Positions 14,353 through 49,087 of a stretch of DNA of 64,000 bases are shown here, piece after piece. The DNA is from Citrus sinensis (taxonomy: Eukaryota; Streptophyta; Magnoliopsida; Sapindales; Rutaceae). The notes beneath the pieces are model-generated. The model ran no database searches. It had not been told where the DNA came from and saw only the letters and a program-made list of their open reading frames with translations. The stretch lies in assembly GCF_022201045.2 (NCBI RefSeq), contig NC_068558.1, forward strand, positions 50,571,501 to 50,635,500, read 5' to 3'. The translations under genes were made by a program, and so were the position numbers. Every line of letters starts with the position of its first letter. Position 1 is the first letter of the stretch.

Positions 14353-14362
14353 GTCCTAATAA

Positions 14363-20530: not shown

Positions 20531-20789
20531 TAACGGTTGTGTCTTCGCCACTGCAAGCCCACACCGAAATGACCCAATGGGGGTGCAGTACGTGTTTTAC
20601 ACGTGGAAGCCAATAATCGTGCCACGCTTTGTCCATTGAAGCGGTGAGGATGTACCCAAAATGTTTTTTTTTACGCGAGATGTACCCGAAATGTTAAAAA
20701 CTTAAAACTGCGCGCAAAAGATTGTACGTACTTGTCCCACAATTCCTACGTCACGTATGAATAATATACTTTCCCTAAATCAATCAATC

Positions 20790-20821
20790 ACTCTCTCTCT
20801 CCCTCTCTCTCTCTCTCTCTT
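20790..20821 (+). repeat. (CT)n tract in the UBX-gene leader
   Basis: A CT run with one CC interruption, about 85-115 bp upstream of the ATG. CT-rich leaders near the start site are common in plant genes. Confidence 0.85.
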
Positions 20822-20905
20822 AAGCTTCAACATTCATCATTCCTTTCACTCTATCTGGATTCTGGGGAGCAGACTGTTACGTACATTCTCGAACGCTGAT
20901 GAGTG

Positions 20906-24699
<3,794 letters not shown>

Positions 24700-25331
24700 C
24701 GCTGTCACTCTTTGAACATCACAGTGTAAATGCCAATTAGGTTCTATTGCTCTTGCGAGCTCGTAGTAAATACTCTGTTTGAGCACTACAATTTATTCAA
24801 CCTTTTTAGGATGCACAAGGAAAGGAATTATATAATACTGTCTTTCCCCTTAGAAGCTCAAATTAGGCCCTTCTGCTTGCTAACAAGAATAAGAAGTGAC
24901 CTCTTATGTTTTTCATTTGCATGTACTACACTGAAGATCCCCGAAGGGGGAAGAGGCCATTCTCAAAGTCTCTTGTTCTATTGTTCAGACTGCATGTCTA
25001 GGATAGTCAATTGAGGTACTTAGGTTTTATGGTATTCATTTGTTCATTACCCGAAAGCTGCAGCTGAAAATAGAGAAGCCGTAGCCTTGGGCTCGAAGCG
25101 GTTTTGCTACCTTCCAAGTTGAAGGTAACAAAAGTTCTAATCGGTCCTTTATGCCTTTAATCTCTTTAACCTCCGAGCATGTCTCTGCTTGCACACAGGT
25201 TTAATGGGAGTACAAGAATGCTTATAACCGAGGTTTTGAACTTATATTAATTTCTTATTTATCTTATTTGATGAAATCAATAAATCGATTCTGTGGTCAT
25301 CACATAATGATATGAAAGAATATTGTCACCT
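24700..25331. other. 3' flank of the UBX gene
   Basis: Sequence after the UBX stop codon, expected to contain its 3' UTR; an aatcaataaatc polyadenylation-like motif lies near 25275. No other gene was seen before the plastid-derived segment. Confidence 0.5.
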
Positions 25332-25668
25332 GGTTGGACTAATAAATCCTAGCGACGTTACCATAGCCTCTATTCAAGTTCAAGGGGGGAGAAATTAGTC
25401 CGCCTATTTTAATCACTAAGAAGAATTTCGCTCTTAAAGAATTGACGAAAGGGGGTATGCTTATTATCGAACCCCGTCGTTTTATTTTTTTTCTATATCA
25501 AATCGTAGGTATTGCATTGGTTCATAAGAATAAGCACAAAATTACTAAAAGATACCAAGAAAAGGGTTATGTTGATAAAAAGGATGTTGATGGATTCATT
25601 GCACAACATCAAAAAATGACTGGAAATAGAAACAAAAATCATTATGATTTGCTTGTTCCTGAAGATAT
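25332..25668 (+). pseudogene. Nuclear copy of plastid DNA: C-terminal fragment of ycf1 (TIC214)
   Basis: Read on the plus strand, 25332-25385 gives INPSDVTIASIQVQ. After a frameshift in a G run it continues SPPILITKKNFALKELTKGG, then IGIALVHKNK-like residues, KRYQEKGYVDKKD, and QKMTGNRNKNHYDLLVPE. These match the conserved C-terminal part of plastid Ycf1 in order. Several residues after IIEPRRF are missing relative to the usual plastid protein, and similarity stops after LVPEDIL. This is a frameshifted, truncated insertion and not a functional gene. It lies 90 bp beyond the PMT15-like stop codon (on the opposite strand), so it probably forms part of that gene's 3' UTR or terminator region. 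Confidence 0.85.
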
Positions 25669-25757
25669 TTTAGGAGGGAAACAAATGCCTTGATGGATGT
25701 AAATACAAAAATCTTGAAAAATAAATAAATAAAATAAATTTTGGAAGAAGAGCATTT

Positions 25758-28700
25758 TTATCGAGCTGTATGTGTTCCTTGATTTTGATCGGGGGCTGGT
25801 GCGGTCCAATATTTTTTATTTGCAAAAAGAATCTTCTCTCTCTGATGGGGTCCATTTTCATGGTCTGCAATTCTTCCTTCCCATTCCATGCCATCTGTGA
25901 TACTCTTAATCTTCACCAATATATCTACATCGTCCCGGATAATTACACTACCTTCTGGCCGTAAGATCCTATCCATTTCTAACAAGACATCTTCCATTTC
26001 ACATCTGTGATATGAATTCAATTCGATCGCAATCAGTTTATCATATTTATTCATTATATGCTTACCCGGCTAAACATGACACATGAGCACATGCTAATAG
26101 AATTACCTGTCCTTATAAAGACTGAAAATTGAATCAGCATGGATGAGATCATAAGTTCTCGGATAAGTAGACATGGCCTCGCACCTACAAGGAGAAAATA
26201 TTTAGCAACAACTTCCATTAATGAAATTTTAGGTTTAAGGCGGTTTTCGTGATGTAATAAGGAGGAAAAAAAATAGATTAATCGATCAATAAAGATTATG
26301 GAATTATGCGAAAGAGTTACAGCTAAGATGGAGATTTAGCCAAAACAGGCCTGGTTTGGAGGTTTCTGAAGAAAAAAACCAAACAAGACAAAAGGTAGTA
26401 GTGGGTCGTTTATCGGCTGCTAAGTGCTAATCAAGGAATATGAACGAAGTGGAGAGATAAAGACATACCAATTCTGATAGGTTCCAATCAAACCACGTTC
26501 GTAGATAACTCCAAGGGTGTTGATTTTGGCTTCAACTGGGACAGTGTTCATGACCCACAATGGATCATCAACGAGAGCTGCTGCAAAGCCTCCCAAATAA
26601 GCATTCATATCAAGCAAGTTGCGGTATCTCCCAGGTTGTGCTAGTTGATAGTCCACGGATTTGTAATATGTCACTCTTTTCTTCCATAGGGCTGTGTCTT
26701 CTCTAAACATCTCTGCTGTAACTCCATCCACTGCTCCCCTATTAACCCTGGGAGGGATTGCATTCAACCTCTCTGGCCACTTGGTCAATTGCCCCCCGGC
26801 GATTTCCTTTATATTGGACACCTCAGGCAGTGGGGTCAAGCAAGTCTCCATCTTAGTATACCTACATTCCAAAAAATAATAAAATCAATTAAAGCCAAAA
26901 TAAAAACAGATACTTCGACAAAGCATCTGCCATCTGGTTGCTTTATAATCCATTTGGTTTTAGAATCATTTCTAAAGCTTTCCTTGGCAAATAGGGACAA
27001 TTTTGCTTTTGCTTTTGTCATCTAATTCAACATCCCAGTGTAAATTAATCCTTCACAAAAAGTTTTATAATAAAGGAGATCGAAAATTATTCGAAACTCC
27101 ATCAAAAGGATAGGATTTTCTCACACAAGAAAAAATAATTAAAATTGGAAGAAAAAAAAAATTACCACGCCATGTCAGGATCTTGTGCCTTGCAAAAGCG
27201 AGGCTTTTTGAAGACTCTTCGGTTAGCTATACAATGTACATGATTAGTGGGTTTCTGCCAAATAGCGAGATCTTTCTTTTGAATTAACTTTTTCCAGCAT
27301 AGGCTCCTTGCTATGGTCTCTATCCCATTTTGTTCTGATTTTAAGTCTTCAGTTGTTCTATTCCAGCCTTTCCAGTGGCTCTCCCAGTTCACTGGTGGCC
27401 CAGACAGAATCCAATACCCACCAGGGCGTAAAACTCGATCAACTTCAATTAAATATAGACCATCTGCTCCACATGAAATTAAACCATAACTTAAATTTTA
27501 CGAACACTTTAAAAGTGAAAGAAACATTGAAATTGCAATGGACCAGTTAGTTAATTAGACTACCATATTGGCCCCAAGGAATGAGACAACGAGAGCAATG
27601 TGCCATGTCAAAAGCTCTTGAAGGATAAGGAAGCCTGATCGAAGCCATGACTCCAATCAATGCTGGAACTCCTCGCTCTAAAGCAAATTGTACCTGAGCT
27701 TCATGAGTGTCTCTTGGTGCAAATGATACTGCCAGAATATTTCTTGACATAAGGTAAGCTCCCCAGCTAGCAACCTGAAAATTTTAACATCATATCCAGT
27801 GAAAATAAAGTATCTGCTTAATATAAAACTATTGTCTCTCTTTTCTCCATACGTCTATATGCTTAGTATAAAGCATGTCACTGAAGAATGCTCTCTTATT
27901 TTATTTTTTATTTTTAAAAAATTGCACTGAATTAATGAACCATAAGAAAATATCAAAAATAACAACCATAGGGGTAATTATGAAGGCATTAATCTTAAAA
28001 AAGTTTAAAGTAGTTACAGAAAATGTTAATTAAGTAATAATGAAGTTTTGTTTATCAGCATTGTCTATGTCTACGTTAGCATTATTAACAGCATTCTTTA
28101 ACTGCAATCCCAAGTTTCCTTAAGTAGATATCAATTACAAAGTGCATTGCCCTAGACATTTTAGATAATTAAGGTGACCAAACACCTTTTCTGCGGTTGG
28201 AAGATAGATAGATATTATATCATTTCTTGGTGAACCACTTTACTTGAGGGCCAAGAATTTATTAAATTTTGCTAAAACTAAAAGAGTAAAGATGAATTAG
28301 GATGGGGGCAAAGCCTACAACTCATCATAAGATCTGCACTTCTTAGCTGTGATTTAAGATTAGGTTTGGTGCACTGCAACATGTGAGCTGGACTACTCTA
28401 AATAAACGCGGAAATAATTACAGTAGAAGGAGTAATAAATACCCGTAAATGGTAAGAAAATAACCAAGTAAATATGAATTCACTATTCTATTTCCATTCA
28501 AATCTTCAATAATGATATCCCATCCATAACCTCCCTATAAAAAAGGAATCATTTAATCGTAAAATATATTTTTCCCATTCAACCTAATTTTCATTATTTT
28601 ACAAGGATATTATTGACCGCACGCCATTCTTTTTCAATTATAATTTTTTTTTTAAAAAAAGAAAAATAACCTAAAAACCCATCCTGCTCCGCCGGCCGGC

Positions 28701-29581
28701 CAACTCAGCCACAGCCAGTGCACACATTCAGTTTAAGTTTATAACCAAGTCAAATAGATACAGACCAATGATTCCGGTTCACGCAAACGAACCGGACGGT
28801 CGACGCTCAAAGTAAAACAAATTAAATGTAAGAGAAAACAAGTTTGATTAAATATGAGAAATTGGTCATATATTTGTTGTAAATTTGTAGGACGTACCCC
28901 ACAGCCAGTATCAATGGCGGTCCTTATAGAGCCATCTTTGAGATTAATCAACTTGCCAATATCGTCAATGTACGCGTCAGCGCCGCGTGGGAACATCGTG
29001 CCGCCACCTGGAAAACTGAACCGGTCACCCTGGAACCGGACCCAATTCTGGTTCTTCTTCTCTACTGTCAACTCCTTATGCGGCACATTAGCGTACCACG
29101 CAAACTGCCTGCTCTCCGGCCACCTAAACGGCACCGTGTAACCGTGCGGCGCCGGCACGCGACACTTGAGCAACTCGGTTTTCTCAGGGCAGTGCCTCTC
29201 CCTGTATATCAACCTGTCCCTGTCGAATTTCAATGACCGGTGAGTGTCCTCGCAGGGGACGTTCTCGACGTATTTGGGGTCGCAGGGAGGGATGTAGGTG
29301 ACACGCGCCAAAGTGGGAGGGGGGTCAGGAGCCTGGTGGTGGGCTGAGAAGTCGAGGTTGAGGTTTGTTGAGGCCTTGGCCGATGTGCTGCTGCATGGGA
29401 CAAAAGTGAGTATAGAAGAAGGTGACGTGGCAGCGCGGATGGCCCCCGGCGAGTGCTGCCACATGCCCGCGAGGTAAAAGATTGTGCAGAGAATTGTAAC
29501 GAGGGTTATTGAATAAAGATTTGCATGCTTTGTTTTGAATGTTATGTAAGATAGTCTCGTTGAACCAGCCGTATTAGCCAT
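25758..29581 (-). CDS. PMT15: Probable methyltransferase of the PMT15 type (DUF248)
   Basis: Six exons: 29581-28898, 27774-27564, 27463-27166, 26861-26469, 26184-26107 and 26004-25758, all GT-AG, giving 636 residues. Start ATG is at 29581 ([12 protein letters not shown]); codons before it in frame lack an ATG. A signal-anchor helix lies at about 23-41. The luminal region carries [17 protein letters not shown], the SAM-binding [17 protein letters not shown] (about 223 onward), [24 protein letters not shown] and [18 protein letters not shown]. It ends EYW-type as [11 protein letters not shown], close to Arabidopsis PMT15 (At4g00750); PMT16-18 are close relatives. Family role: Golgi methyltransferase, substrate not proven for this clade. 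Exon 2 (211 nt) matches QUA3 exon 3 in length and phase, showing common gene structure. Confidence 0.93.
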
Positions 29582-32500
29582 TGAAATTGAAACCAAAATA
29601 AAAATAAAAAAAAATAAAAAAAAAATTAAGAGAGACCGATGAATTATGAATGAAAATGAGAGTCTCCGTATTGCTTTTATGCGAGAGTCTCTGTAGTCAA
29701 GGAAGACGGGTTAACGTAAGGGTGACGGGTGAACTCCTCAAGGTTTTGTTTGGTACGCGGACTGGTGATATCGAGTGAGGGTGACGCGCTGGTGAAAGAT
29801 GAAACTGGCCCAACGAGAGAGCGTGTTTGCATTTATGGAACGTGGGCGCGCGCGCGGGTATATTATTAATAAGGCAAGTGAATAAAGAGGCAGATTCTCT
29901 GTTCTTCGTCTCCACTCGCCATTCTTTGTTTTGTGTATTTAACAAAAATTGTATTTTTGCATGCAATTAAGGAATATCAATCTAAGATGTTCTCTGGTTA
30001 TGGTATTCGAAATAATAATTCTAATAAAATGCGAATTGAACTTATTTATTTAATTTTCGTGGATAGAACGTTACGTTCAAAATAATAAACAAAACATATA
30101 TTATTGGAATTGTTTCATTTGACCAGTAGTAAGGGAAAGAGGGACGTGGGAGATATTGGACATGCATCATGCATGGCACATCACAATGCACATCATATGC
30201 TGTATGCTTATACAAAATCAAAAGACGTGGGGCACTTAACTCAAAACTTTATAGAATCACATGGTGTGTTTTCTATAAAATTAAAAATGTCCTTAATAAA
30301 GATCTTTATACTATGAACTTTTGAGTTCAATATGGCATTACTAATAGCACTCGCTATCTTTGGTTTCACTTTCACAAGTAGAGTAGGTAAGTTTTTTTTT
30401 TTTTTTTTTTTCTGGACCTAATTGAATCATTTAATATATTCTGAAACGGTTTCAATATCTCCGAAATTAGAATTTTAAATTGCCGTAAATTCTGATGAAC
30501 CTCGAAACTATTTACTTGAAAGAAAGAAAAAGAAACTCCTCGAGGAGAGTGTCTTACACTCTCTTGATAGAGCGCGTGTGAGTAAGTAATGTCCCGTCAG
30601 CAATAGGAAGGTCCAGTCATGTCCGAGAGAAGCATATCCGCAGCTGTTGGATCAAAATTCAAGATAACAACTCAAACTGTGATCAGAACTCAACTGTCTG
30701 TAATTTCGTTTCGATTATTTTCGTTGACAACCAGAATCGAACTTTTCTTGCATATGGGTTTTAGTTGCTCTTCATTCGTCCTAGGCGTAGTTGCTACTTG
30801 CTTTGCCTGGGTCTCGTATTTAGGTGGGAACCGGTGAAGTTTGACTTTTAATCTTTAATGTTTATTTTATTGGAGAAGTAAGCGCTCGACCAGATTAAAA
30901 TAAGAAGAGAGGCACATGCAAATGCAATTGCAATTGAGTTTATGAATTAAATATTTAGTGTATAACATGCTGTACACGTTACATATATTATATATACATA
31001 TGCGCTAATGAATCCATCTTCATTCATGGTGGCACTAACTACGTTTAACGTCTTTAAGTAGATAAATTTGCATGTATGATATTCAATTTTCCTCAGTACT
31101 AAGCTCTTTCTCTAACTCAATGACAGCTTGCGCGTCCGCATTGTGCGAGATGCATTGTACGCACCCACTCCTATCTTTCTCTAATTATTATGCGCATGCA
31201 CGGCGGCTAATGGTGATTGGTAAGGGGCTTGAATGGAACTCCTCTACTACAACAAGTAATGAATCAAGCAAAGATCTTTAGAAACTCATGTGACTTTTTT
31301 TTTTGGGGGAAAATGTGCTTTCCTAAAGCTATATACATTATACCTTTCTTTAACTATAGTTTTTCATTAATTTGTGTTTGGTGAAGCAATTGAGTAGTTT
31401 GGAATTTCAATTTCATTGAACAGCTATATATATGCATGTGGACCCATCTTTGTGGAAACGGGGCCTTAAACCTATCCGCTTTTTATCAACCATAAAATTG
31501 GTGAAATTTTGACTTTACCCATGCATTAACATATCAAGCAAGGAAATGCTCCAATTTGGAAAATTTTGGAACATGATTTGATTTTATATATATATAGGTT
31601 CTTTCAACCATAACTCTGATCGTATCACATGCACCTATATATATATATATACAGCCAAGTTGGACACAAACGTTTCTTCATTTTTATTTTTATAACACTA
31701 ATAAAACATTTTATGTAACATTTAGTTTGCTGTAAGACTAATTTCTGTCGGATATATGATTGCGATTGATGGTGAGAACAGAGATATACCCAGAGTACAG
31801 ACACACGCGCCATAGTTAATTTTTTTTCCTGCAAAATATTTATTATTCGGCCGTCGTAGGGCATTCAAAATGCATGAGTGAATTTATTTTTATTGTACTT
31901 TTTTTTTTTTTGGTTTCGAAGCCCAGCAAGCCCATAGAACGTTTGTTGGATTGACTCTTTGAAACAAATGTTGGTGTACTTTGAAAATATCGAGGTTAAT
32001 TCAGTATTACGCCAGCACACGAGTGCTGATTACGAGAATGCCTAGTTTGCCTAACGGCTGATACAGAATTATTTGAATAAAAATGCGAGTCATGATAATT
32101 GGTCCCCTTCATTCATCTCACCGGCCACATTTCTCAATGAAAGCCATTAATTTTTTTTTTAAAAACAATCCATATCTCTTAATATACCTCGCGTCATGCC
32201 CAATAAACCCTTAAATCACAGTTAAGCTTGTTTAAACGTCTATAGAAGCCTCGTATCTACTGAAGAATGAAAAAAAAAAAAAAATAGTGTGCTTCTAATT
32301 TGTTCATGTTATTGGTAGGTAAAAACGCAGCGGTTTCTTACATGATGAGCTTAAAGAAAAGAGGAGAGAGGAGATTCTGCTAACTCAGCGCCACGTGGAG
32401 AACATTTTATTTATTTTATGTTTTGTTGTTTTAACACGCGGAGCTCGGGTCCACCAAAACTTGTCCTTACTGGGGACTGGGCCGCAGAATCATCAATCAA

Positions 32501-33612
32501 CTGAAATACTGGATCTATCAGAATCGGGTTTCTCTTGCATTTTCAGTCATTAATCAATTGAAAAAGGCAACTCAGTTTGGGTTGCATCTAATTGTTTATT
32601 GTGCGATTTGGTTCAAACGCAAAGTTGGGTTAGGTTGGGACACGTGGTGGTTGGAAAATTGAGGAAAAACGACACCACACTTTCGTTTAGCGAAAGCAAA
32701 AGCGCAAGCAAATCAAACTTTGGACTGGGACTGACAAGAGCTTAATCAACTATTAATTTATTTGGAAGGGACATCAATTATTTTGTCGATGAACATGACC
32801 ATCACCACTACCAAGTGGGCATATATATCGTTTAAGAATGGCCTATCCTACAATATTCTCTTTTAGTTTCTTAGTAAAATTGTCAATGGTTTTGAATAAT
32901 TGATCACATCAGGACGAGACAAACGTGAACGTATTGTATTTTTGTAATGCACAAATCAGTTTGGGTTCAGAATACATAAAATCATCATACATGACATGAC
33001 GGCACGGAATTCAATGGAATTTGGACACCCAGCTTTTGTGACGCTGTCTTAATCTCTTTCGGTTAATTGTATTATGATTATTATATATGAAATAGAAGTC
33101 GTAATGAAATATATAAGAGACAGATCGGATGAGGAGGGCAAATACCTGGATTACACAACAGAGACAGTTGACTAACTAACCGATCTACGGCGTAACGGGG
33201 ATTGCGACATTATCCGTTTACTTAATCCATCATTCAATTTAATTCAATCATAAGTTTTCTCACTTATGGCGCGTTCGAAAGAAACAGAAGCAACCACGTA
33301 GCGCGTGCATCCACGTTCTCTAAACCTAGGACAAGAAGGTGTTTTTTTTTTTTTCCTTAATATTGCTGTTGTTGTAATGGATAAGATTATAGTTCCAGCG
33401 TCACACCTGATCCTGATTCGGCAGACACCTCCACTAATGTAGTCGTAATGTCCCGTCGGACTTAAATCTCTTTTCTCTGACTTAAAGTTGTCCGAGTCTA
33501 CGTGTCTGCTTATTCAATCCAAGTTGGGTCGATTAATGAGTAAGAAGACTCAACAACAAACCCCATTCATTGAAAAATCAGATTTTGGGATCTGTCTGGG
33601 TTGAGAGGTTTA
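29582..33612. other. Divergent intergenic region between PMT15-like and PP2-A13-like genes (4 kb)
   Basis: Includes the A-rich leader and promoter of the PMT15-like gene on the left, with a short (GC)5 run near 29846, and the PP2-A13-like promoter on the right. The middle is ordinary AT-rich DNA with short frames that lack domain content. A small hairpin (gagagtgtcttacactctc) is near 30545. Confidence 0.6.
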
Positions 33613-35415
33613 ATGGGAGCTAATGTGTCTGGTATTGTAGCGGACAGCAATGGAGATGAATTGTCTTCATTGAGGCCGAGATTGAGCGACATGCCAGAGA
33701 GCTGCGTGGCATTGGTTTGATGCATTTGGACCCACCTGAGATCTGCAAACTGGCTCGCTTGAATCGGGCTTTTCGGGGAGCTTCTTCAGCTGATTTTATA
33801 TGGGAATCCAAATTGCCTTCCAATTATCAGTTCATTGTTGACAAAGTTTTGGGTAGAAGTAGTAAAACAAATATGGTTGATTATTTGAGTAAGAAACATC
33901 TTTATGCCAGGCTTTGTAGTCCCAGTCCCTTTGATGGTGGCAATAAGGTTTGTTTATTTCCATTTATTTTCTTTGTTTTTCGACATTATAAAAAATCTGT
34001 GATTGGGTTTCCGTACAGAAATGTTTTGATGCATCCGTCAAACCATAATCGTTTGATCCTCGATAATCTTCAAACTTGGTTGCTGTTTTTGATAATAATA
34101 CATCTTGGTCAGATCATGACAAGTTTTCTCCGAAATTTGGGAAATTTTATATTTTTCATTCACAATCTCTAGCAAGTGTATGTTATCTTTTTGCAAAGAA
34201 CCTTTGAATTGGTGCAGATGTTTACTGTGTATAGGGGGATTCAAAATGATTTTGGTTATGTACAGGAGATGTGGCTGGATAAAAATACTGGTGGCCTCTG
34301 TGTGTCTATTTCTTCCAAGGCTTTAGCCATCACCGGGATTGATGATCGGAGATACTGGACTCACATTTCAACTGAGGAATCTAGGTGAGATTGTTATAAT
34401 AGCTATGTAATTCTGCACTGTGTTGCCCCCGGAGCTGTTTGAAATTAGTAGTGGTCAATTGCTTCGCTGGTGCTTTTAATATCATTCGTGGTCATTTTGC
34501 AATGTATTGACACTGAATTATCCATTGGAATTTAGCATTTTGTCGCTCTACGTTTCCTCTACTATCAGATTGTGTCTCAATTTCGTGTGCAGTGTACAGA
34601 CTCCATTTGGCCTTTCATAATATTTGCGGAGTTGATTCTTTTTCTGCTATATCTTTCAGTTATGGAGTGCTCAGAAATTGGTTTTTCAGCAACATTCAAT
34701 CTGATTGATGCTTTTAAGCTGAGTTCACACATTCATATTTTGATGTGCGTTTACTCACTGCTAGTAATTAGATTACAATGATACAGTTGGCCACCTGCTA
34801 AGTTTACACCATTTTTCTTATTTCTAGGAACTTTGATTTATTCACATTCATTCAAATATTTTGTCCAAACGAAACATAGATTTATTGCGTTGTTTATGCT
34901 TTATAGTGGTCTCCTTTTCTCCCACTGCCTGATGAATGAAGCAATTTGTTTGGGACCTGTCCCTTTCTTTGCATGTTAGGTTCCAATCAGTGGCGTATCT
35001 TCAACAAATCTGGTGGTTTGAGGTAGACGGAGAGTTTGAGTTTCAATTTCCTGTTGGGACATATAGCCTCTTCTTCAGACTACAGCTTGGGAAGCCTTCA
35101 AAGAGGCTTGGTCGTCGGGTTTGCAAGTTTGAGCATGTCCATGGCTGGGACATAAAACCCGTTCGTTTCCTACTAACAACATCTGATGGACAGCACGCCG
35201 TATCTCAATGTTTTCTAGAGAATCCTGGTCACTGGGTTCATTACCGTGTGGCAGATTTTGTTGTTGAGGATCCTAGTGAATCGACAAAGATTAAATTTTC
35301 ATTGACTCAAATCGATTGCACTCACACAAAAGGAGGTCTTTGTGTGGACAGTGTTTTGATATGTCCCAGTAGTTTTGAAAAGAGTTTGTTAGGTCATTCC
35401 TGTAAACGATGTTAA
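33613..35415 (+). CDS. PP2-A13: F-box protein PP2-A13-like (F-box plus phloem-lectin-like domain), frameshifted in exon 1
   Basis: Three exons: 33613-33947, 34266-34384 and 34980-35415. The conserved start MGANVSG is at 33613 and the F-box begins [12 protein letters not shown] at codon 25. One T is then missing in the run at about 33715-33718, so the frame stops at a TGA (33718-33720). In the next frame the protein continues directly with [18 protein letters not shown], and the rest is intact: [17 protein letters not shown], the PP2 fold ([34 protein letters not shown]) and [20 protein letters not shown] 260-residue protein could start at ATG 33720 but would lack the first half of the F-box. 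Family role: substrate receptor of SCF ubiquitin ligases. Either a real null allele or an assembly error in a T run. Confidence 0.88.
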
Positions 35416-38400
35416 GGTTTGGTTTGTTAGGGAGTTAGTGTTATGGTTGTAGAAATATACGTGTTTTTGAAAGTCTTGTAAATCCTGCTTTCTGCTCTGG
35501 TGATTTGTTTTTCTCCTGGTGTAAATGAAATTGCTTCTTGATAGTTAACTAGTGTGTTCTCAGAATATGCAAATTGTTTTACATTTCGGCTATCTGTTTA
35601 CATCTCTGGCAATCCTAGTTATCCCATGCTCAAGTAAAACAGGAAAATTATACCAAGACCCCTCTTCAGAAAACGAACAATGGAGATCATTATTTTAGAC
35701 GTCCATATAACTTCACAGTTAAATGTTTCTGGCATTCAATCCTTAAATTTTTGTGATGGTAGTCAAGAATCTTCACCCAATTTTAGTAGGTACCAGTTTT
35801 GATTTGCGTGGTAAAGGCCAGCCAAATTTAAATGATAATGGTGAAACTATTTGCACTCTAAAATCTATTTCGAAAAATATTTTCTCTATTCGTTTAATTT
35901 AAAAAATAAATTTTACCCATCATACTATTACAAATGTCAAAACAGTCTTTCATCAAAACTATCCCATTAATAAGTAATTATTTTCCTGTTAAACCCATAA
36001 AGTTTCATCATTCTAGAATCATTTTTGTTTACCAAAGTCATAAATACATTTTGATTTAGTTTAAGTGACAATTGAAAGGAAGTTTTAATCACAATCACAA
36101 CTTTTGCTTTGTTATTCTTTATATGGGTGATGCCTACACAATTTATTAGTCTTGTTAACTTTCTTTCTTTATCTTTTTAAAAGATGAGGATTTGAAATAA
36201 AGTTTTTGCTGAATCAAAAGTTATTAGGTAAGAAAAATAAAAATTTTAAAAAAATCTTAATTATTAATTCAACAATCAATAAAAATTCAAGTGAAAATTG
36301 AATTATTATCCTTCTTTAAAACATAATTTTGTCTTGATTTGAATTTAAATTAATTTGTTGTAACACCAACAATAATAACGACAATAATAATAATGTTAAA
36401 AATAATTAAAATAATAAAATTTAATAACAATATTATTAATATAATAATAATGACACAATAAATAACAATAATAATAGTAGTAATAATAATATCTTTTTCT
36501 TAATTAAGATAAACAAAATTTATTAATAGAAAGGGAGTCATATGTCTTTTTTAAAAATATTAGGGAGTTTTATATTTCTTTTCCCAAACGTCAAAAGTTA
36601 ACCGTCATTTTTCATGTATTTTATTGTAAATATACAATATTATCTCTTTTTTGTTAAAATAAACGAAATAATTAGTGACAAATGGATTTAAGGCAAACAC
36701 TACCTTACAATCAATGTATAGTACATCCCTCACATAAATAGTGAGTGAGTCCCACTCATACACTGTTCATAAGTGAGGAATGTACCATACATTGGTTGTA
36801 AGGTAGTGGGATCCTTAGATTTAAATATTTTTTTTTAAATATTAAAAAAATTTAATGTCCCTTTCCCAAAAATTGAAAGCTACCAGTCCTTTTCCCATGT
36901 CAAAAGTAAAATTTAAAGTGTAAATGGATTCACCCAAAATTATAACCGCCTTGAGATGTGAGGCCATGTTCCATTCTATCATGTGATTCGGGTTTTCTCT
37001 GCTGGGACCCAAGTCCGAAGGTGGTGGGCTGCGTATAAGCCAGCTAATTTTTTTTTGGATTTGCATCTTACGTTTCGTTCTTATCCCCCGTTTAGGCGTT
37101 TAGTCTTCGTAATCTTCTCTGCCAAACATATATACTTAAAATAATATAAAGTTAAGATATAATTAAATTTTTTATTTAATAATTATTAATTATATCTTTA
37201 AAAATAATAAAAATCAACTCTCCGCTAAATTTAAATGCAACAAATATTAAATTAATAATAATAATAATAGGATTTTTCTCTTATTTAGGCCCTACTCAAT
37301 ATAACTTGGTAAAACCTCTTATAATATAATATACAATATATATTTTGAGTCATGAACCGTGCTCACCTTGTTAAGGAGGAGATTTAACTGCCATGAATGT
37401 ATTTAAAAATTCGATTTACAAATAAAAACGAATATTACAATAAAAGAAAAATGTTTAAATTTGTATTTTCTAGAAAGGTTTTAATTTGGATTGTTATTTA
37501 CCTGTAATTGATGTCAGAAAATTTTCTGCTTTCTTTTAGGGGGAAAAAAAAATCTCATCCGTGGGAATTGGAATCAAAGTGTCTGAATGGTGAAAGAAAT
37601 AATTTCAAAATTGTTCAAAGAGTTATTGAAAAAATATATATATTAATAGCCTAAATATAAGATTTGATATTTGACTTCTCTTAATTTATGAGTGAGATTG
37701 GCTTTTTCTTATTAGGAGGAATCAATAGAAAATGACGGTAAAATTTTTTTTAAGCTGATCCATTCTTTTGTTCTATTATAATAATTTATGAAGAACACAC
37801 GACTTTTCAATATTAATACATATGTCGAAGGATCAATTCAAACTTCAAAATTATTTCTCATCCAAAGAAACAAACGAAATTGAATCAAAATCATACCCGT
37901 AAATCATCAATGTAAAACTGTGTTGGTGTTCAAACAGAGGATTATAGATAAGTTAATAGTATGATTTATGAAATATCACCAAAATTTTCTAATATAATTG
38001 AAAAAATTCAAATGGAAAAATTAATTTTGAAATTTTGATTTTGGATTTGAGAAACAAAATGGGCCCAAAGAAAATGACCGGAGGGTACTTGATTGGTACC
38101 CAGGTGATGGTCGAGGGTGCCCAGGACAAAGTAAGGAAAATTAAAATAGAAGTTTGTGTTTTTGCCTTAAATTTAAAAATTGAATTTGATTGAAAAATAT
38201 ATATAAATATCTGAATAAATATTTATTTTTAATATTATAAGTGATATTTTATTTATTTTTATAAATAAAAAATTTTATCAGAAAAAATAAAAAGCAATCT
38301 TTCTATAAATTTATACATAATATGTTTAATAGATTTTTTGGGGATAAGTTATTTATTTCTCATTTAAATAAAAAGAATCACAAAAATTTATTGTTTTAAT

Positions 38401-38830
38401 TTCAATGTAAATATTTAAATATCGAAACATAATAAATTTAGAAAAATAAGTAAAATTTTCAAGATTTTAAATATTTAACAAAATAAACCTAATTTATTCC
38501 TTAATAATTTATCGACCGGGTCCCAAGTAAATTAAAAAGGGGAATGAAATCCATCAAAATAACAATGGCAGTCAGATAAGATTTAAAATATATCTAATGA
38601 ATTAAATTAATTTTCGAAATTAGCTTTCACCAAGCTTAGCCATGCCTATGTGTGACTCCCAGTCACATGCCACCTCGCTCTGTGGCAATAATCAGTTACT
38701 CACCACCACCAACAACAATTCTCTCTCTCCCCAAAATTATTACGCTTTCTCGCTCTAGGGTTTCGCACTTTTGGGGATTTTTCTTTTGATTCCTCAATAA
38801 AGGGCAAAAATTTAATCTTTTCTCTCAACC
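35416..38830. other. Intergenic region with foldback and ATT-rich repeats
   Basis: Strongly AT-rich, with ATT/AAT trinucleotide-like stretches near 36370-36500. It holds the foldback described separately. The right end (about 38700-38830) is pyrimidine-rich and reads like the 5' leader of the following F-box gene. No coding gene seen. Confidence 0.6.
36698..36808. repeat. Near-perfect foldback of about 110 bp
   Basis: Left arm cactaccttacaatcaatgt... (36698-36733) pairs with the right arm ending ...acattggttgtaaggtagtg (36773-36808) with only a few mismatches. The inner part (gtgagtgag versus ctcactattt-like) also pairs. Weaker pairing extends outward to about 36681 and 36828. It resembles a short foldback MITE; a hairpin RNA precursor is an alternative. 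No target duplication was established. Confidence 0.8.
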
Positions 38831-39294
38831 GTGAGTCTGTGATTCCCATCCCCTGAAAAGCTTTTTTCTTTTTTGTTATGCTTTTCGGTTTAATTTTCTT
38901 CGTCAATTTCGAGCTTTTAATTTTTAGTAGTATATACCTTTGAATTTTAATGGAAAATCATAATTTTTGTGACTACTTTCTGGCCGTTTATGCGAGTGTA
39001 TGTTATTGAATCTGAAACCATGTTAATAATGTATGCAAGTTTTTGTAGAATTAAAAATCCCTAATTTCTTTCATTTTTGGTTCAATAATTATAGGAGCTT
39101 TCAGATTTTTCATTTGAACCTTGCTCTCTTTACCATCTATCTTCACTCCTTGAATGTATTAAAGGGGTTTTCAGGAATTTGTGCCTGTGCGTGTGTTTTC
39201 TTTTCTATGGGGCTTTTAGGCACCGTTTGGATTTCTCCAAGTTTTATTTTGCTTATCCGTGCAAGTTCTTATTTACTGTGTTGCATTATTTCAG
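38831..39294 (+). other. Probable 5' UTR intron of the At4g00755-like F-box gene
   Basis: Donor GTGAGT at 38831 after leader sequence ending caacc, and acceptor tatttcag ending at 39294, 13 nt before the ATG. A leader intron would join the pyrimidine-rich upstream leader to the coding exon. Inferred from splice motifs only. Confidence 0.5.
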
Positions 39295-39307
39295 TTGGTC
39301 AGTTCAA

Positions 39308-41964
39308 ATGGAGAATCGAATTGATTTTGTGAACTGGCTTGATCCCGACATGTCTATTCAGATCCTCACTTGTTTGGATGATCTATCTGATCTTCTCCGT
39401 GTTACCTGTGTCTCACGTTGTTGGCGACAGTATGGTAAGCGAAAGTATTCAGTAATGTCTATGCTTTCTTCTGTTTTTGTACCAACTTCATGGTTGTAAT
39501 GCTGAGGGGTGAATTACTTGTTTTGTCTCTACTTGATGGAATTTTTCAAATGTAGACGTAGCAGAAAATCTATGGTCTTGTCCTAAAAGGTTTAAGGTTC
39601 TTTATGTGTTTTAAGATTGCAGTCTTGTCGCTGAGAGATACATAATTTTCTATGTTTTGCAGTCATTGCAAACGGTCTCTGTCGGCAGCTGTGCCTAAGA
39701 ATGTTTCCTCAGTTATCGAAAGTTGTTCATGTAGTGGAACAAAGATATGGTACAAAAGACCCTGCAGAGGTGGGATCTAGTAATTTTATGGAGTGGCAAA
39801 ATTTGGAGAGGGAGCACAGAGCTTATGCCTTTTTAGCACGAGGTTGTACAACATTTCCTATTAGAGATTTGATTTCAGAGCCAATCTGTGCTTCCAGCAC
39901 TGATAATTATCCAGAGGAGAGCATCGACAATACTCTGGAACCTAGAGATGTAGTTGCGCAGAGAGCTTCGTACTGGTCAAGTAAAGGAAACAGCAATCCC
40001 GCCGAGCCTGAAATGCTGTTATATAAGTTGATGGGTGATCTGTGTGTTATTACTGAAGTCAGCATACAACCTTTCGAAGGTTGATCGTTTTAGAAAATTG
40101 ATACTCGAGTTCTTCATTCCAAATTTCATTCTTTTTTTTTAAAGGACATACCAAATTTAATTCTTGTCACTGATGATAAGTTTATGTATTTTTTGTACAG
40201 CTTATTTTCAATGGGGTCTACCTATATATTCAGCCAAAGCTGTGCGCTTCCGAATGGGTCATCCAAAGTCTCCTGTGGATGTTCCCTTAGGTGAGTCATA
40301 TAAGGACTATGAAAATAAATTCATCTGGACGTACACTTCACAAGAGTTCCCAATGGCCCAGGTAAGCTGTATTTCTAAGCTGTATTTCTAACTGTGCTAT
40401 TACCTATATTGTTGCAATCAACTGAAAAGAAGCTGAAGTAAATATGAGTTTGTAAAGACTGTAATAGCATCTAGAGAATAAACCTTCAATAGATCTTCTC
40501 TTGCACCAAAATATTATCATTTGACATAATCACCTTTTGCATAATCTCACTTTAGATTGAGATAATGAGTTCAGATTGTGTGCACAAAAGGAGCCTGACA
40601 ATTATGTAATTGCTGGGGGTGCATTATGGCACATTCCCGCAGTAAGTCAATTCCATGCACAGAGATTTGATGTAAAGAGTGGCTGATACCTTTCAAGTAG
40701 CCAAATATGGATTAAAAGATGGGCAGTCCTTGACCATTGCATTTATCAGTGCCTAAAATGCCTTTTATCACCAAGAACTAATTTTGTAAATGGGAGAATA
40801 AACTGCTCATTATATTTTGTTTCAATTTGAACTTACTTTTGAGGACCATGGCTTGCCGCAAAAGGTCCTAGAAGCTGGCTGAATGCAACCGAAATGCACT
40901 TTCAGGCCTAAACTCAATCTCTTGATTGAAAAGTTTAGGATATTCTTACGAGTCAATGGCAGTATTTTTATCATTTGGTCTTCATCATTGTAAATTGTTT
41001 GTTTTGAGCTGCTATGTGACTCTCTGAGTGACACTTTGTTTCTTCTATATTTCCCATCCACATTCTAATCATCCTAATGAATTCACCAACAGGAGAATCG
41101 CCTCCAGACGTTCAAGCTTCCAGAACCTGTTTTGTGCATTGGTGGGTTTTTGCTGATTGAACTTCTGGGTAGGGTTCAGAGACAAGATATGGATGGCTTA
41201 TTCTATATATGGTTTGCCCCTTCCTCTCTTTTCAATTGTTCTTTTTTGGTATTCATGGTAAATTGTTGTGAACTTTTTCAGGATCAATGTGCTAGTACCT
41301 TAATTGAATACTTTGTTATTTTAGCCATAATTTTTAGCCATAATGTTTATGTCACAGATCAGCTTTGAGTTCCAAGCTTATCCAACAATATCTTTACATT
41401 AGCATTGGCCAAACTGATGGCTGTTGGATTATGAGTTTTAGTTGATACACTGTTTTGAGGGCTTTGATGATTCATTTTGGCACCATTTTATTGATTAGAG
41501 AGAATCTTTTGAAAATTTTACTTTCATTCTGAACAAAATAGATATTCATGTCTTTTCATTTTTTTTTTTAAAAAGATGAGACATTCATGTGCTTATCTTT
41601 GGTTAGAAACTGTTATGATCATTTTGGCTACTAGCTGTGTATGAGGAGAATATGTATTTCCATCGTATACTGGCCTAATTTTGGTACTTTATTGGCATAT
41701 CACAGTGTGTCTCATGTTCAGATCATGGGACGATCATTATCACCTGCATTCGGTATTGAAAGCCCTGAACCCTCTGGGAGATTTGCATTGAAGGTTCTGA
41801 GTTATGCTCAACCCACACTTGATGATCCATCCTTAATCCAGAGTGCGTATTTACGGAGGCGTGTGGGGCAGATTATAAACATCTTGCGGGGCAATGCTGT
41901 AGATGTTGTGGAATATGAGTGGGGTGAAGAAGATGATGAATCAGATGATGAGTTCGTTCTCTAG
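39308..41964 (+). CDS. F-box protein, At4g00755-like
   Basis: Five exons: 39308-39434, 39663-40079, 40201-40361, 41093-41211 and 41706-41964, joining to 360 residues. The N terminus carries the F-box (NWLDPDMSIQILTCLDD then LLRVTCVSRCWRQYV, about residues 9-44). A long region of unknown fold follows, with conserved-looking blocks WGLPIYSAKAVRFRMGH and ENKFIWTYTSQEFPMAQ. The C terminus is strongly acidic (EEDDESDDEFVL). It resembles Arabidopsis At4g00755, which fits the neighbours. Family role: presumably an SCF substrate receptor; its target is not known. Convergent with the PEX11 gene 620 bp away. Confidence 0.88.
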
Positions 41965-42584
41965 TGTGTCACATAAATCTAAATTGTATCTCCTTTTTCA
42001 CTTTGATCCCTGCTTTTGCACCAAGTAATAATTCCATTTGGAGTGGCATCGTCTAAGGCCTTTTTATTGTAGTGCTCAGGCAGAAATGTATGTACTTATT
42101 CTGCATTCTCCTTGCAGTTCACCGTGTAGCCTTTGTTCGGCACCAAGTTGCTCGTTCTTTCCCTCCACTCTGGGGAATAATGGAAGTTTGAAGTTATAGT
42201 TTCCCTGTGCTCAATAGAAACATAATCTCACTCTAGAGGTTCATCTCCAGATGTCAAAACCGAGAATGGCAAAATGAGCTTAATGACGATTCTGTTTAGT
42301 GCCTGATTGTTTAATGCTGGTTGACAATGCAATGTGGTTTTCTCTGATATGGATGCTAACTGACATTTAAATTTTTATATGAATCATAAATGAAAAGACA
42401 AGCCAGGGGTATTATTACTACTTTAAAAGAGCAGAGTGATCTTGACGACAAGTGGAATATTTTAATGTCACCTTATAAGGTGGCGAATTGAGCAAAAGCA
42501 TACACCAACATCTGACTTATGTAACCACTACGAATAATTATTTTAATGTCACTGAAGCTTGTGCAGCAAAGCCGCCTTCTCCAT
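41965..42584. other. Convergent 3' flanks of the F-box and PEX11 genes
   Basis: 620 bp expected to hold both 3' UTRs. No other feature recognised. Confidence 0.55.
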
Positions 42585-44556
42585 TCATGGTGCCTTGGCT
42601 TTTACTGGAGCTGGAAGTAGCTGCATCACAAAGAGCAAAAATCTAATCAGAAAATGAGCAGTGGCTAGTTGCAGTTTCCGAGAATTATATTGACCCAAAG
42701 GCTTAATCAGGTCCCGTGCTGCCGTGCAATGCTAGGATTATTTAAATTTTAATTTACTGTTTATGAAAGTCAAAGCCAATTTTTATTTTATCACTACTTG
42801 TCAATATACTAATAAAAAGTTTTTAAAAAAAGTTGTCAAAATACATCTATGGACAAGTCACATCAAGATAATTTCCCAAGTAACAAAAATCTTCATATTC
42901 ATGATGACTAAAGATGCCTGATGCTTCTTCTTCATCCTTCGTTCAAATCAGACCATTGTCAAATATAGTGTTTTCTTTTGTTTGGGTATTTTCAAACTCA
43001 CACATTACCGTCCTATGTTCGTATATTTCATCGTTCACGAGCCAATATATAACTAACGCACTAATGAAGATATCAACCGAAAATTAACTGTAGAATTTGA
43101 AACCTGATATCAAGAGATGGGTAGCAAATCCAAAGGCTCCGATATACAACTAACACAGTAATGAAGATATCAACCGAAAATTAGCTGTAGAATTTGATAC
43201 CTGATAACAAGAGATGAGAGAGGTAACAAATCCAAAGGCTCCTGTTACACGAGGAGTAACTTTCTTGGGGGCCAATTGAAGCAGCCCAACCGCCACCACA
43301 ATGTCCATGGCTGATTTGACAAGTGCTAGAGACCTCTCATTTGATTTTTTAAGTTTAGCTTGGTATTGTTCATTCTGCAATAAATCCCAAGGAAAAAGAA
43401 AAAGGGATGGAGAAAGACAACAGTTAGCTAGGTATTCAGTAGGTGCAAACGTTTCATTGTTAACTTATTGCGGAAACGTTAGGTTGGTATACTTTATGCT
43501 TATCACTGTCCTTAAGCTCCTTCTCTAACTTTTTCATTGATGTAGAAAGCCTCCCAAGCTCTCCAAGCTGACACATGGAAGGGATAAATTGGATTAGACA
43601 AAACCATCATAACAAGAAACTATTCCAAATTTAGAATTCCAACATATAGAAGCCAGTGGTTAATAGAAAACTAAAAGCAACACACCTCAACTAATGTGCT
43701 ACAAACTGAGGAACCCATCCAACAAAAAAGAGATATCCGACCAAGCAATTCTGCACGCTCTTTGTTCTGTTGCAAAAGTACCATCGTAGTTGATCTTTTT
43801 GGGGAGGGTAAAAAAAAACTTACAAACCTAAAATGAACGTACAGAACTGTCTTTACCTTGTAGATGCCTGATCTGCCAAGCCAAACGACTTGATCAAGAA
43901 ATAAGAAAGTTGACAATAATGCATTCTTGGACTGAAACATGCAAACAATTAAGAAGTCAAAGCCATGGAAGGAAAAGGGAGAGGGGAAAAAAAAAGACAA
44001 TAGAGAAGCCATTTCACAAACTATTTATACCTTTCCCAGCAAAACAAGTGGAAGCGGAGTTCCTTGGGGAACTGGGCTGATAAGAGCGTGCAAATCATTG
44101 ACAAACTGCAAAAACCAGAGTTACAACCAAATCATGTCAGCATGAGACACATAGAAATATAAGTTCAATATCAGATTTCAACAAACGTTTCAACTAAACC
44201 TCAGAGAGAAAATAAGTTCACAAATCTGCTTCTTTCTTAAGCTCTTGCTTACAGCAGGCAGAATAAAACATTATCAGTTAATAAATGACATGTCATACAA
44301 AGCTACCAAAGAAACCAAAAACCTATGCTACGGTTACTTCAAAAAGAATACTATAAAGCGTAACCTTAAAAAGACGGAAAACTTTCCGGGCTAAGCTGGT
44401 TGACTTGTCAACATTTTGGGCAGTACCAGGCTGTCCATCACTCAAGAATTTTGAACCATATTGTATAGCTCTGCATATCTTGTCCCTGGCTTCAGCCTTA
44501 TTCAAATACAAAACCACAAGTGCAAGTTCTGCTCTGGTTGCATCCAGTGTACTCAT
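42585..44556 (-). CDS. PEX11: Peroxisomal membrane protein 11 (PEX11 C/D/E group)
   Basis: Seven exons: 44556-44365, 44105-44031, 43931-43857, 43766-43686, 43567-43493, 43374-43201 and 42620-42585, giving 235 residues, close to the 235-236 of Arabidopsis PEX11C-E. The N-terminal block ELALVVLYLNKAEARDKICR and the segment SLARKVFRLFKFVNDLH are the amphipathic helices that remodel peroxisomal membrane. Later parts include LFLDQVVWLGRSGIYKNKERAELLGRIS and the C-terminal hydrophobic SAMDIVVAVGLLQLAP and GAFGFVTSLISCYQLLPAPVK. Role: elongation and proliferation of peroxisomes. The last exon codes only 11 residues. The exon 5 donor (AAA then GTATAC) was chosen because it gives the family length. 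A leader intron probably precedes exon 1. Confidence 0.94.
43045..43242 (-). repeat. Tandem duplication of an exon end and splice donor inside PEX11
   Basis: 43045-43140 and 43141-43242 are about 88% identical. The right copy carries the real end of exon 6 with its GTATCA donor. The left copy, now in intron 6, carries a 6-nt shorter version of the same exon end followed by a GTTTCA donor-like site. Confidence 0.85.
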
Positions 44557-44564
44557 TTTTTATC

Positions 44565-45478
44565 CTGTAATCAAGGTATTTGCGGTTCGTTATGATTCAT
44601 GTATAACTCAGATTAACAAAATAACATCAGGCATACAATGTTCAAAATACCACATCACAAATATAAAACAGAAGCAAAATATGTCAATCAAAACCAACAC
44701 AAGTTAAATCAAGTCAAGCAAGAGCTTAACTATAAAAAGCATATTATCCATTGTCCAAGGGAAAGTGCCATTTGAAAGATCCGTCCATTCTCAACGAATT
44801 AGAAAACTATAAGGTGGAGACCATTCAATTAGAGGATAAAAATTACACAATTACAATTGGCAAAAAGAATTTGAACAGCTCATTAACAAGAATACATGTC
44901 AAGATAACTTTAGGAAGTATGATTAACCAAAAGTTGCAGCACTAAATCTTGTTACAACTTCAAATTTCTATCCAAGAATCATCACCATGAACCGCTAGCC
45001 GCCCTATAACTGCATGAGACAATCTACAGCAAAGTACATAAACATCCCAGAATAGCTTCTGCGTCAGATAATCTCTTCTAAACCGGCAGATTATGATACT
45101 GTATTTCTCCAAGAAAAACTCAGAAACTTTTAAATGAAAAAAAAAAAAAAAATGGTGGGCCGTAAACAAACAGAGAGCAAGAGAAAAAGAAAAAAAAACA
45201 ATCTTCCTTCCAAGACTTTTTTTATCTCAACCCTCAGTTCAACTGCTAACCACAATAAATTTCCAAGCAACCCAACGGAGTAAAACAAGATGAGCGAATA
45301 ATTCATCAACAAATGAATAAAATCACAAAATCTAAAAACCAATATCTAAAATCACATTAATTAATCATGATTCCCAAATAAAAATCAAAACCCATAACTC
45401 AATAATCAAACAAAAAGCAGCTTATTGCAGTAAGCTTTCACATAAACATAAACATAAACAAAAATCGATTTTACATAC
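44565..45478 (-). other. Probable 5' UTR intron of PEX11
   Basis: On the minus strand a strong donor (TTTAG then GTATGT) is at 45478. A ttacag acceptor ends at 44565, eight bases before the ATG. The 914-bp interval has no coding content. Inferred from splice motifs. Confidence 0.55.
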
Positions 45479-45479
45479 C

Positions 45480-47404
45480 TAAAGTACAGATCAAAAGGTC
45501 CAAAAAGAAGAGAAAAATAAAAACGAACTGGGGTTTGTTTATTATAGGCGAACACAAAATTCTTTTTCTTTTTTTTTTCCCCAAATCTTACTAAGATACT
45601 CTTATTATGTATATGATGGATTGATAGAGAAGAGTATGGTACCGAAAAAAGTGCGCAACGATTTGGCCTCGAAAAGCTCAAATTTGGCCTTTTTTTTTTC
45701 TTATTTCCCTTAATTTTATCTGAGAAAAGTTGCAGAGGCTGCCCTTTAGTTAAGCTACCGTCAGCTATAGCGTCGTTTTGCTTCGGATGACCGGATTGCT
45801 TCTCTATCTCCGCAAATGATAGACTGTGATAAGGGCTTGTTTGGTCCTCTATTTTCCAATGTAGTAAAACAAAATCATTGGCCGTTAATTGTGTAACCGT
45901 AATTCCTCCGAGAGTTTTTGCATAAGGTCCCACTACCACAACTCATGATCCGACCGTTGATTTTTTTTTTGTTAGGGCGAAATGATTTACGAATTACGAT
46001 CACGATTCATTTTCGTTTTCATTATACAATAATAAAGATAAAGGAGGAAACCGTAAACAAGTAATCAATGTATGTACAGTGTATAAATATAATTAAATTT
46101 AATATAACCATTATTTATATAAAAAATTTTAAAATAAATATATAATTATAACATTGTTTATTTATTACATGGGTGATAAAATACATGTGCCCCACAAGTT
46201 TTCTAAATTTGTGCTCCGTTCGGTTCACACCAATCCGAAGAATGAGAAATATGGACGGCTCTGTTCAGCGAGTCACTGCTGCGCTGTCACTTATCTGGAA
46301 ACGCAGAAATCAGAAAATGGAATCGGTTGCCCCAAAACAAAACGTGCTTGTACTGCTCACTAAGCCCATTCTTTTGCCATCCTAAAAGCCCACTAAACAC
46401 TAAGCTTCAAACTGTTGATAATGCAGCGCAGAATCAGTTGTTTACTCTTCAGCTAATTCAGGAGATGCGGATGGATGCTTTGAAGTGAAAACACAACAAA
46501 ACTAGTGGGGTTAGGTCCTGGTGCTGTACAAGTATGACAACAAACTATATCTATCTTAAGTGATGTCGTGTTGACTTTCCATATCATTTTGCGGAGCAGG
46601 CCTAACTGAAATACCCAAAAGTTTTTTTTTAAAAAAAAAAAATCACAACAGTTCTCGTAACGGCTTTATTCTCTTAAACTCTCTGATAAGTATCACCTTT
46701 TCTGCAGCTGTCAAAAATATATTTTTCTTTTAACCCAAATTTCAACCATTGAGCAGTAAAGACCAACTAAAAGTGCACGAGCATCATGTCAGTCCCAGCA
46801 AGTTTTAGGTTGAAAAGCGTTCAAAGAGAAATCATTTATGATCTTATCCCCCACCGAGCGAGCTAGGATATGGAATCCAGGACAATGGCGGAGAATTGTA
46901 CAAGTAATTATAAGGCTAAATGATACACAACAGTACAACGGAGTAAACAATTGTTCTCAGGCTCTCAGCGACTGAAAGCTGTTGACCAGAGATGGCACAT
47001 TCAAATAAATAAAGCCTAATAGATACAAAGAGTAATAATAAAATAAATATGTAAAGAAAGCAATTTTAACCATTATTATGATCTATGCATAGGAAACAAC
47101 AGTAGAAAAGAATAAAGAATGACAAGGGATAAAATCTTCATCATAACAGATCATGATTGCAACACGTTCAAGTGCAAAGGCAAGTTGTGGTAAATGGCGA
47201 TATCGTTGAGAACTGAAGAAATTGGGGGGAAAAAAAAACATTATGCATTTTATAAACATTAATAATAATGACGTCGGTTGCATGGTTGAAACATTATGAA
47301 TATCATTGACTACTTTTGTTTCATACAGATCATGAAACATCAACCATACAACAGAAGCTATAGAAGAGGCCTTGTTACACAAAGGGTGATTTTCTTGTCA
47401 TTTT
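45480..47404. other. PEX11 leader/promoter and 3' flank of the ARM-repeat gene
   Basis: About 45480-45650 is likely leader exon. Upstream DNA includes the PEX11 promoter, a copy of the dispersed AT-rich repeat near 46055-46200, and a T/A foldback (46621-46645). The segment 47050-47404 should be the 3' UTR of the ARM-repeat gene. A 177-codon open frame overlapping the leader is judged chance. Confidence 0.55.
46055..46200. repeat. Copy of the dispersed AT-rich MITE-like repeat
   Basis: Shares the core aaatttaatataacca-ttattta followed by ttttaaaataaat and a tttattacat-like block with the copies near 4.3 and 55.8 kb. Ends are not well defined. Confidence 0.45.
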
Positions 47405-49087
47405 CTATTTTCTGCTGAAAAAACTTCTCAACCTTCCTCTTTCCAATCGCTCGAGGAGCTTCCTTGCACCTGGAATGTCCATCTCAGAAAGCTTTTTAAG
47501 ATATCCGATTGCACCATAAGAAATCATCAGCTTCTTACATTTCTTACTTGGAGAAAGAGATGCCAGGCAGGCCACTGCATATTTCTTTGCAGTGTTTTGT
47601 GGACTTGGGTCGAGCAATTGGACCAAATTTGGCACACTTTTATCATCCCTTTTGACTTCTCTGCAGTTCTGCGGAAGCGTCACCAAGCTTGAAATTGCTT
47701 GGGCTGCAACTTCTCTAACACTATTTGGTTTAGCTTCAAGCAACTTGATGAGCAGAGGTGTACACCCAGCTTCACCCACCAATTTTTTCATCTCTGCTGA
47801 GGTGCAAACCCTACAGAGAGCCGATGCAGCAGCTTGTTGTGCACCCAATGATCCTGCCTTAAGCACATGCACCAAACGAGGGAAGAAACCAAGAGAAATC
47901 AAAACCTCCTGAGAAACTGAACCAACCAAATTCCTCAATGCCCCAACTGCAGACTCCTGGGGCAAAGGACCATCAAGGTATGCCAATAAGCTTCGTATTC
48001 CACCTTCTGAAACCACAGACCTTCTTAGATTCTCATTGCTGGCAGTGAGATTCTGCAAGCACTCTGCAGCATATTCCTTGGATCCCAATAAAATTCCACA
48101 ATCTAGGAGTTTGATCATAACCGAGACAATCCCTTCTTCAGCAAGCATTTGGCGAACCTCAGGAACAGCTGATATATTCTTCAACGTACAGGCAGCTGCT
48201 GCCTGCGAAACAGAGTCACCAGTTTGACAGATCTCAATAAGAGGTCGAACCCCACCATGTCCCACAATTGCCCGGGCCATTTCTGCCGACATTGACAATC
48301 TTTGGAGCGAAATTGTGGCCTTCTCTTTACCCACAGTGCTACCAGACTCAACAAGCCTAATGAGAGGAGGCAAAACACCTTCTGAAACAAGCCAATTCTC
48401 ACAACTACCTGATTCAGCAAGTGAGCATATCACAGTAACAGTCTTTTCCCGTATACGAGGAGAAGTTGCTGTTAACAATTGGACCAGAGCAGCAATATTG
48501 CTCCGCCCCATAACAGCCAAAACATTCTTTTCATCCTCTTTCATGGCCTCAACAAGGCTGTCAAGAGCTTTGTGCTTTGCCTCCAAGTGCCCGATCTGAA
48601 GCCGTGCAAGTAATTCCCTTGTATTGCCATGTGTTGTAGCTTCAGCATCTGTTGAAGAACCAGCCACAGACAAAGGCAACGTAGCCTCCCCAAGCACTCC
48701 TGTCTTGATTAGAAGTCCACAGTCGTGCAAATTCAAATCCAATTTCCCTGATAAGGCATCGAGATCGCTCTGCATCCTAAGCTTCCCTTCATACTTCTCC
48801 TTCACACATAACTCTGCCAATTCAATTGCTTCCTTCAATGTCTTTGACACTGCCTGCAATTGCTCCCTACACAATGCATTTTTGGAAAAGCAAGGATGGC
48901 TTGACAAGTCGGATAAATGCGACGGGATCTGCTCCAATTTGGAGATTATCATCTTCCATCTACCAGGAAACCCCTTAATCTGTCTTGCCTTCTCAACAGC
49001 CACTGGAACAAGCTCTTGTGCATGTAACAGCCACTCATCAGCCGATTGAATATTGGCCAATGCCCCGTTACCACCATCTTCCACCAT
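47405..49087 (-). CDS. ARM-repeat protein with N-terminal DUF7032-type helical domain
   Basis: A single exon encoding 560 residues, starting at the first ATG (49087, MVEDGGNGALAN). The N-terminal 150 residues form a helical region (LLHAQELVPVAVEKARQI, LKEAIELAELCV) typical of plant DUF7032/ARM proteins. Armadillo repeats run from about residue 190 to the end (for example VQLLTATSPRIREKTVTVIC, GGVRPLIEICQTGDSVSQAA, GGIRSLLAYLDGPLPQESA). It ends with a basic GRLRSFFSRK. There is no U-box, although such proteins are often mislabelled U-box proteins. Role unknown; ARM repeats suggest protein binding. A leader intron is likely upstream. Confidence 0.9.
   Translation of the reverse strand: MVEDGGNGALANIQSADEWLLHAQELVPVAVEKARQIKGFPGRWKMIISKLEQIPSHLSDLSSHPCFSKNALCREQLQAVSKTLKEAIELAELCVKEKYEGKLRMQSDLDALSGKLDLNLHDCGLLIKTGVLGEATLPLSVAGSSTDAEATTHGNTRELLARLQIGHLEAKHKALDSLVEAMKEDEKNVLAVMGRSNIAALVQLLTATSPRIREKTVTVICSLAESGSCENWLVSEGVLPPLIRLVESGSTVGKEKATISLQRLSMSAEMARAIVGHGGVRPLIEICQTGDSVSQAAAACTLKNISAVPEVRQMLAEEGIVSVMIKLLDCGILLGSKEYAAECLQNLTASNENLRRSVVSEGGIRSLLAYLDGPLPQESAVGALRNLVGSVSQEVLISLGFFPRLVHVLKAGSLGAQQAAASALCRVCTSAEMKKLVGEAGCTPLLIKLLEAKPNSVREVAAQAISSLVTLPQNCREVKRDDKSVPNLVQLLDPSPQNTAKKYAVACLASLSPSKKCKKLMISYGAIGYLKKLSEMDIPGARKLLERLERGRLRSFFSRK

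Follow-up and report, generated by a model that had tools for sequence, protein, structure and literature searches.

A one-base frameshift in the F-box of a Citrus sinensis PP2-A13-like gene, in a region that the assembly contains twice

The stretch of Citrus sinensis DNA analysed here (the window, 64,000 nucleotides, on contig C3 at 50.5715-50.6355 Mb) carries a gene of three exons with GT/AG borders, which we take to be putatively PP2-A13-like, a name given in a reading of the sequence only. The spliced coding sequence is 938 bases long, a multiple of three plus 2, and the frame from the first ATG is closed after 35 codons, within the F-box, by a TGA at 33718-33720. The three Ts at this site are followed by a G, and the premature TGA shares one base with an ATG from which the spliced frame stays open to a TAA at 35413-35415 (Table 1). 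The first-pass annotation had described a frameshift in the F-box with a stop after 35 codons in a gene with an otherwise conserved start, splice sites and PP2 domain; the frame from ATG 33613 confirmed the former, and the exon borders, together with PF14299 in exons 2 and 3, upheld the latter. It had set the short T run at about 33715-33718; the three Ts lie at 33716-33718.

Table 1. Positions of the gene, of the indel-rich blocks and of the doubled region (window coordinates unless marked C3)
Feature	Location	Strand	Evidence
Exon 1 of the PP2-A13-like gene; stop inside the F-box	33613..33947	+	ORF reading; F-box in exon 1 of the second copy (Pfam)
Three-T run; four Ts in the second copy	33716..33718	+	Copy comparison
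ATG opening the remaining 276 codons, one-base overlap with the premature stop	33720..33722	+	Spliced frame
Exon 2, start of the PP2 domain	34218..34384	+	PF14299 at 34221-34385, 25.8 bits, cutoff 25
Exon 3, remainder of the PP2 domain and stop codon	34980..35415	+	PF14299, 93.6 bits, cutoff 25
Block 1, partner dense in one-base indels	23500..38500		179 in 14.5 kb aligned, 12.3 per kb
Block 2, same kind	73.5-87.5 kb, past the window end		202 one-base indels, 14.4 per kb
Whole window, within the downstream unit of the doubling	1..64000		Probe searches
Head-to-tail doubling, about 1.35 Mb per unit	C3:48.085-50.761 Mb		Probe searches and local comparison
Inverted probe pair	C3:49435914-49437113, 49440001-49441200; likewise 48084661, 48088748	-, + (first pair)	Probe search

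In Pfam searches, the window copy shows the PP2 domain (PF14299) of an F-box/PP2 protein of the PP2-A type and lacks an N-terminal F-box in a single open frame. The 35-residue piece of its exon 1 gave no match, and the 77-residue piece scored 16.7 bits as F-box-like, under the cutoff of 24.3. The 87-residue exon-1 piece of a near-identical second copy, described below, was recognised as an F-box at 25.4 bits against a cutoff of 20.5. Two paralogues, L003 (contig C9, 67%) and L005 (contig C6, 61%), also pass the F-box cutoff and have an open frame across the same residues. Because the near-identical copy reads through with four Ts and both paralogues are open, the frame of the window copy is truly broken as assembled. 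As plant F-box/PP2 genes go, this one is ordinary; it resembles the PP2-A13 type in its N-terminal F-box (in the second copy), its C-terminal PP2 domain and its three exons, and differs from it in that the window copy's frame ends inside the F-box. In C. sinensis, three exons are given for 19 of the 26 PP2 genes and an F-box for 21 of the 26 proteins (PMC12966013).

The genome assembly totals 299.7 Mb and has 11 contigs, two of them small and the other nine 24.8 to 52.3 Mb long. When it was searched with a 2.1-kb query from the gene region, both near-identical hits lay on contig C3, and the second of them (98%) puts a further copy of the gene near 49.2815 Mb. For the comparison we took 120 kb around this second hit together with 60 kb next to the window. 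The overlap was colinear throughout, with 12 of the 14 matches of at least 400 bases (shorter matches were left out) at 97.1-99.6% and the other two, local repeats, at about 86%. In the wider region, seven of ten 1.2-kb probes had a counterpart 1.33 to 1.35 Mb upstream; the remaining three, at 50.800, 51.000 and 49.680 Mb, lay in dispersed repeats and were uninformative, 40 candidates having been scored for each. An eleventh probe, at 50.760 Mb, matched 49.429 Mb at 99.25% in a local comparison. The upstream unit extends to at least 49,430,591, and the downstream unit starts by 49,435,914. Near the start of each unit, a 1.2-kb probe was also found to have an inverted, 100% identical copy about 4 kb away.

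The two copies are not one sequence. The window unit contains a 613-base inverted-repeat element (13740-14352), with inverted arms of 177 bases that are 94% complementary and a direct repeat at its edges, which looks like a foldback or MITE-type element, and the second copy has an empty site in its place. The same holds for a 6.4-kb stretch (65164-71577 in window coordinates, past the window end) with inverted ends and short direct repeats at its edges. Outside the two blocks rich in one-base indels that are described below, the copies differ by 409 substitutions in 86 kb, at 1 to 23 per 2 kb with a variance to mean of 4.7 (38 bins), and by 93 indels, often in long one-base runs or dinucleotide repeats; these differences look natural. 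Assembly of a single sequence twice is ruled out by the empty insertion sites and the 409 substitutions. Patchy divergence together with empty insertion sites is the pattern that two haplotypes would give, a real duplication being the other possibility, and patchiness of this kind can also come from coding constraint or gene conversion. We infer that the copies are most likely two haplotypes of one locus, wrongly set in series.

For the detailed comparison of the copies, 12 of 36 matches were kept after removal of those shorter than 300 bases, less than 95% identical or lying off the diagonal, and the paired stretch showed 664 substitutions and 504 indels, 430 of them of one base. These one-base indels are gathered in two blocks of about 15 kb (Table 1), where their density is 22 to 25 times that of the remaining sequence (49 indels, 0.57 per kb). 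Substitutions rise only about twofold, to 10.2 per kb in block 1 and 7.6 in block 2 from 4.75 elsewhere. The borders of the blocks are sharp at the 500-base scale, and the frameshift site falls within block 1.

The coding sequence in block 1 indicates which copy is at fault. The window has open frames in five methyltransferase exons (1,800 bases in all); the 27 frame-breaking indels in them fall in the second copy. Over the 938 bases of the PP2 gene, the copies differ by 11 indels, all of lengths not divisible by three; ten disturb the second copy and one the window. Altogether, 37 of the 38 frame breaks in the 2,738 coding bases checked in this block lie in the second copy, which is the mark of unpolished long-read sequence, as are dense one-base indels within sharp borders. 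Block 2 has five ORFs of at least 110 residues on the window side versus two on the second copy; a plain count of ORFs of at least 100 residues in block 1 gives no such deficit, with 11 in the second copy and nine in the window. Single Ns occur four times in the second copy and not at all on the window side. Among the indel bases, C and G stand at 47 to 16 in one block (p 1.2e-4) and at 31 to 51 in the other (p 0.035), an opposite unevenness as expected of single-strand reads, and A and T are not uneven (p 0.11 and 0.41; six tests in all, uncorrected). We considered and rejected the possibility that the window is the low-quality copy, as the exon-by-exon count and the loss of a 323-residue exon both point to the second copy. 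The second copy thus contains two stretches that look like unpolished reads, one of them over the PP2 gene, and the window copy is mostly clean.

A 575-residue armadillo ORF has no indel between the copies, and the sole indel in an AP2 ORF is an in-frame one of three bases. Four ORFs of at least 100 residues that carry indels outside the blocks or just past block 2 have no Pfam match. At about 88.7 kb (window coordinates, past the window end), 500 bases inside a 210-residue ORF, likewise without a Pfam match, contain clustered indels together with 16 substitutions. Methyltransf_29 (PF03141) is encoded twice on the minus strand of the window, by genes at 11425-13470 and 26420-29710 that lie within 20 kb.

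With its four Ts, the second copy shows that the assembly does include a form of the gene intact at the T run, and the gene is not demonstrated to be lost. The coding sequence of that copy, in which the F-box is recognisable, has its frame broken by ten further indels. From the comparison of the two copies, we consider it probable that the missing T is an assembly error in the window. Its absence would be a residual base error in one copy of a region that the assembly contains twice, two haplotypes of one locus having been placed in series, head to tail, over about 1.35 Mb. One haplotype copy would hold stretches of unpolished reads, one covering the PP2-A13-like gene, and the plant would have the gene intact at this site and make the F-box protein normally. 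The break in the window, one base in a run of four, is of the same kind as several of the errors in the second copy. Our prior expectation is that frame-breaking errors in long-read assemblies are no rarer than true frameshift alleles of conserved genes.

The doubling itself has much in common with false haplotypic duplication, namely near-identical, colinear copies of a locus on the same chromosome, a patchiness of divergence that may be allelic, and low base quality in parts of one of the copies. It differs in that the units meet without a gap, the 45,368 bases spanning their border containing no N, an argument against two haplotigs having simply been joined in a scaffold. The frameshift, the second copy with its four Ts and the assignment of the noisy blocks to that copy are observed; we infer a false doubling, and a loss of the T by error rather than in a real allele. 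Against an error stands the fact that, among the frame-breaking indels counted in coding sequence, the window carries only the missing T; good polishing ought to fix so simple an error, the more so as reads of both copies would map there. The first-pass annotation had rightly offered a null allele and an assembly error as alternatives; it could not see the doubling of the region, nor the four Ts and the indels of the second copy. The doubled region, the four-T partner and the partner's one-base indels make us lean towards an assembly problem; they do not decide the window base, given that the rest of the frame there is intact. A search with the 23-base flank of the site in collections of genome contigs and viral contigs gave no match and hence no independent sequence, and the literature searched held expression and review material without the sequence of the T-run site.

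A real null allele is possible, though we hold it to be rather unlikely. In that case the T would be truly absent from the window haplotype, or from the downstream copy if the duplication is true, and no full-length F-box protein would be made from it, the other copy being intact at this site. The window copy is in frame elsewhere, and a young null allele would show precisely one break with the remainder intact; the copies are moreover distinct, as seen from the empty sites of the 613-base and 6.4-kb insertions and from the substitutions outside the blocks. The site lies, however, within a block where the assembly of the partner is provably poor, and the three Ts are known solely as assembled letters. 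A stronger form of this explanation, in which the head-to-tail units, about 1.35 Mb each, arose by a real and young duplication and the loss of one base has naturally knocked out the window gene, a first step in the loss of a duplicate gene, appears improbable to us; the gap-free border counts for a real duplication.

It is very improbable that both real sequences have three Ts and that the gene is dead in both, the fourth T of the second copy being an error of its own. The second copy is rich in one-base indels in block 1, but at roughly 12 of these per kb an error would have to hit the exact place that restores the frame, and L003 and L005 retain the frame of the family. Hardly credible at all is a bridged frame, in which the deletion is real and the gene works through -1 ribosomal frameshifting or a restart at TGATG: the ATG that overlaps the stop does open 276 further codons, but the zero-frame GCA TTG GTT TGA has no slippery heptamer of the type X XXY YYZ, the ATG has a T at -3 and a C at +4, a poor context by the rule for start codons, its product enters the F-box-like profile at position 15 and stays under the cutoff, and the second copy and the two paralogues need no such device. 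Programmed frameshifting was accordingly rejected, given the missing heptamer and the open frames of the four-T copy and the paralogues. The earlier statement that the product from ATG 33720 would be without a working F-box holds as far as its sub-cutoff Pfam score goes, with an alignment to the profile from position 15 onward only; binding to SKP1 would be expected to be lost in such a product.

Counts of PP2 genes or of null alleles taken from this assembly could be misled twice, with one locus appearing as two genes and both seemingly broken, though not at the same position. All genes inside the doubled stretch and its noisy blocks are affected. PP2-A13 supports short-day growth in Arabidopsis (PMC11114106), and a PP2-A13 transcript is reportedly among those of six PP2 genes that are up in Liberibacter-infected citrus roots (PMC4457719). 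Should the deletion prove true, the window gene would be a natural knockout in which the function of PP2-A13 could be tested outside Arabidopsis.
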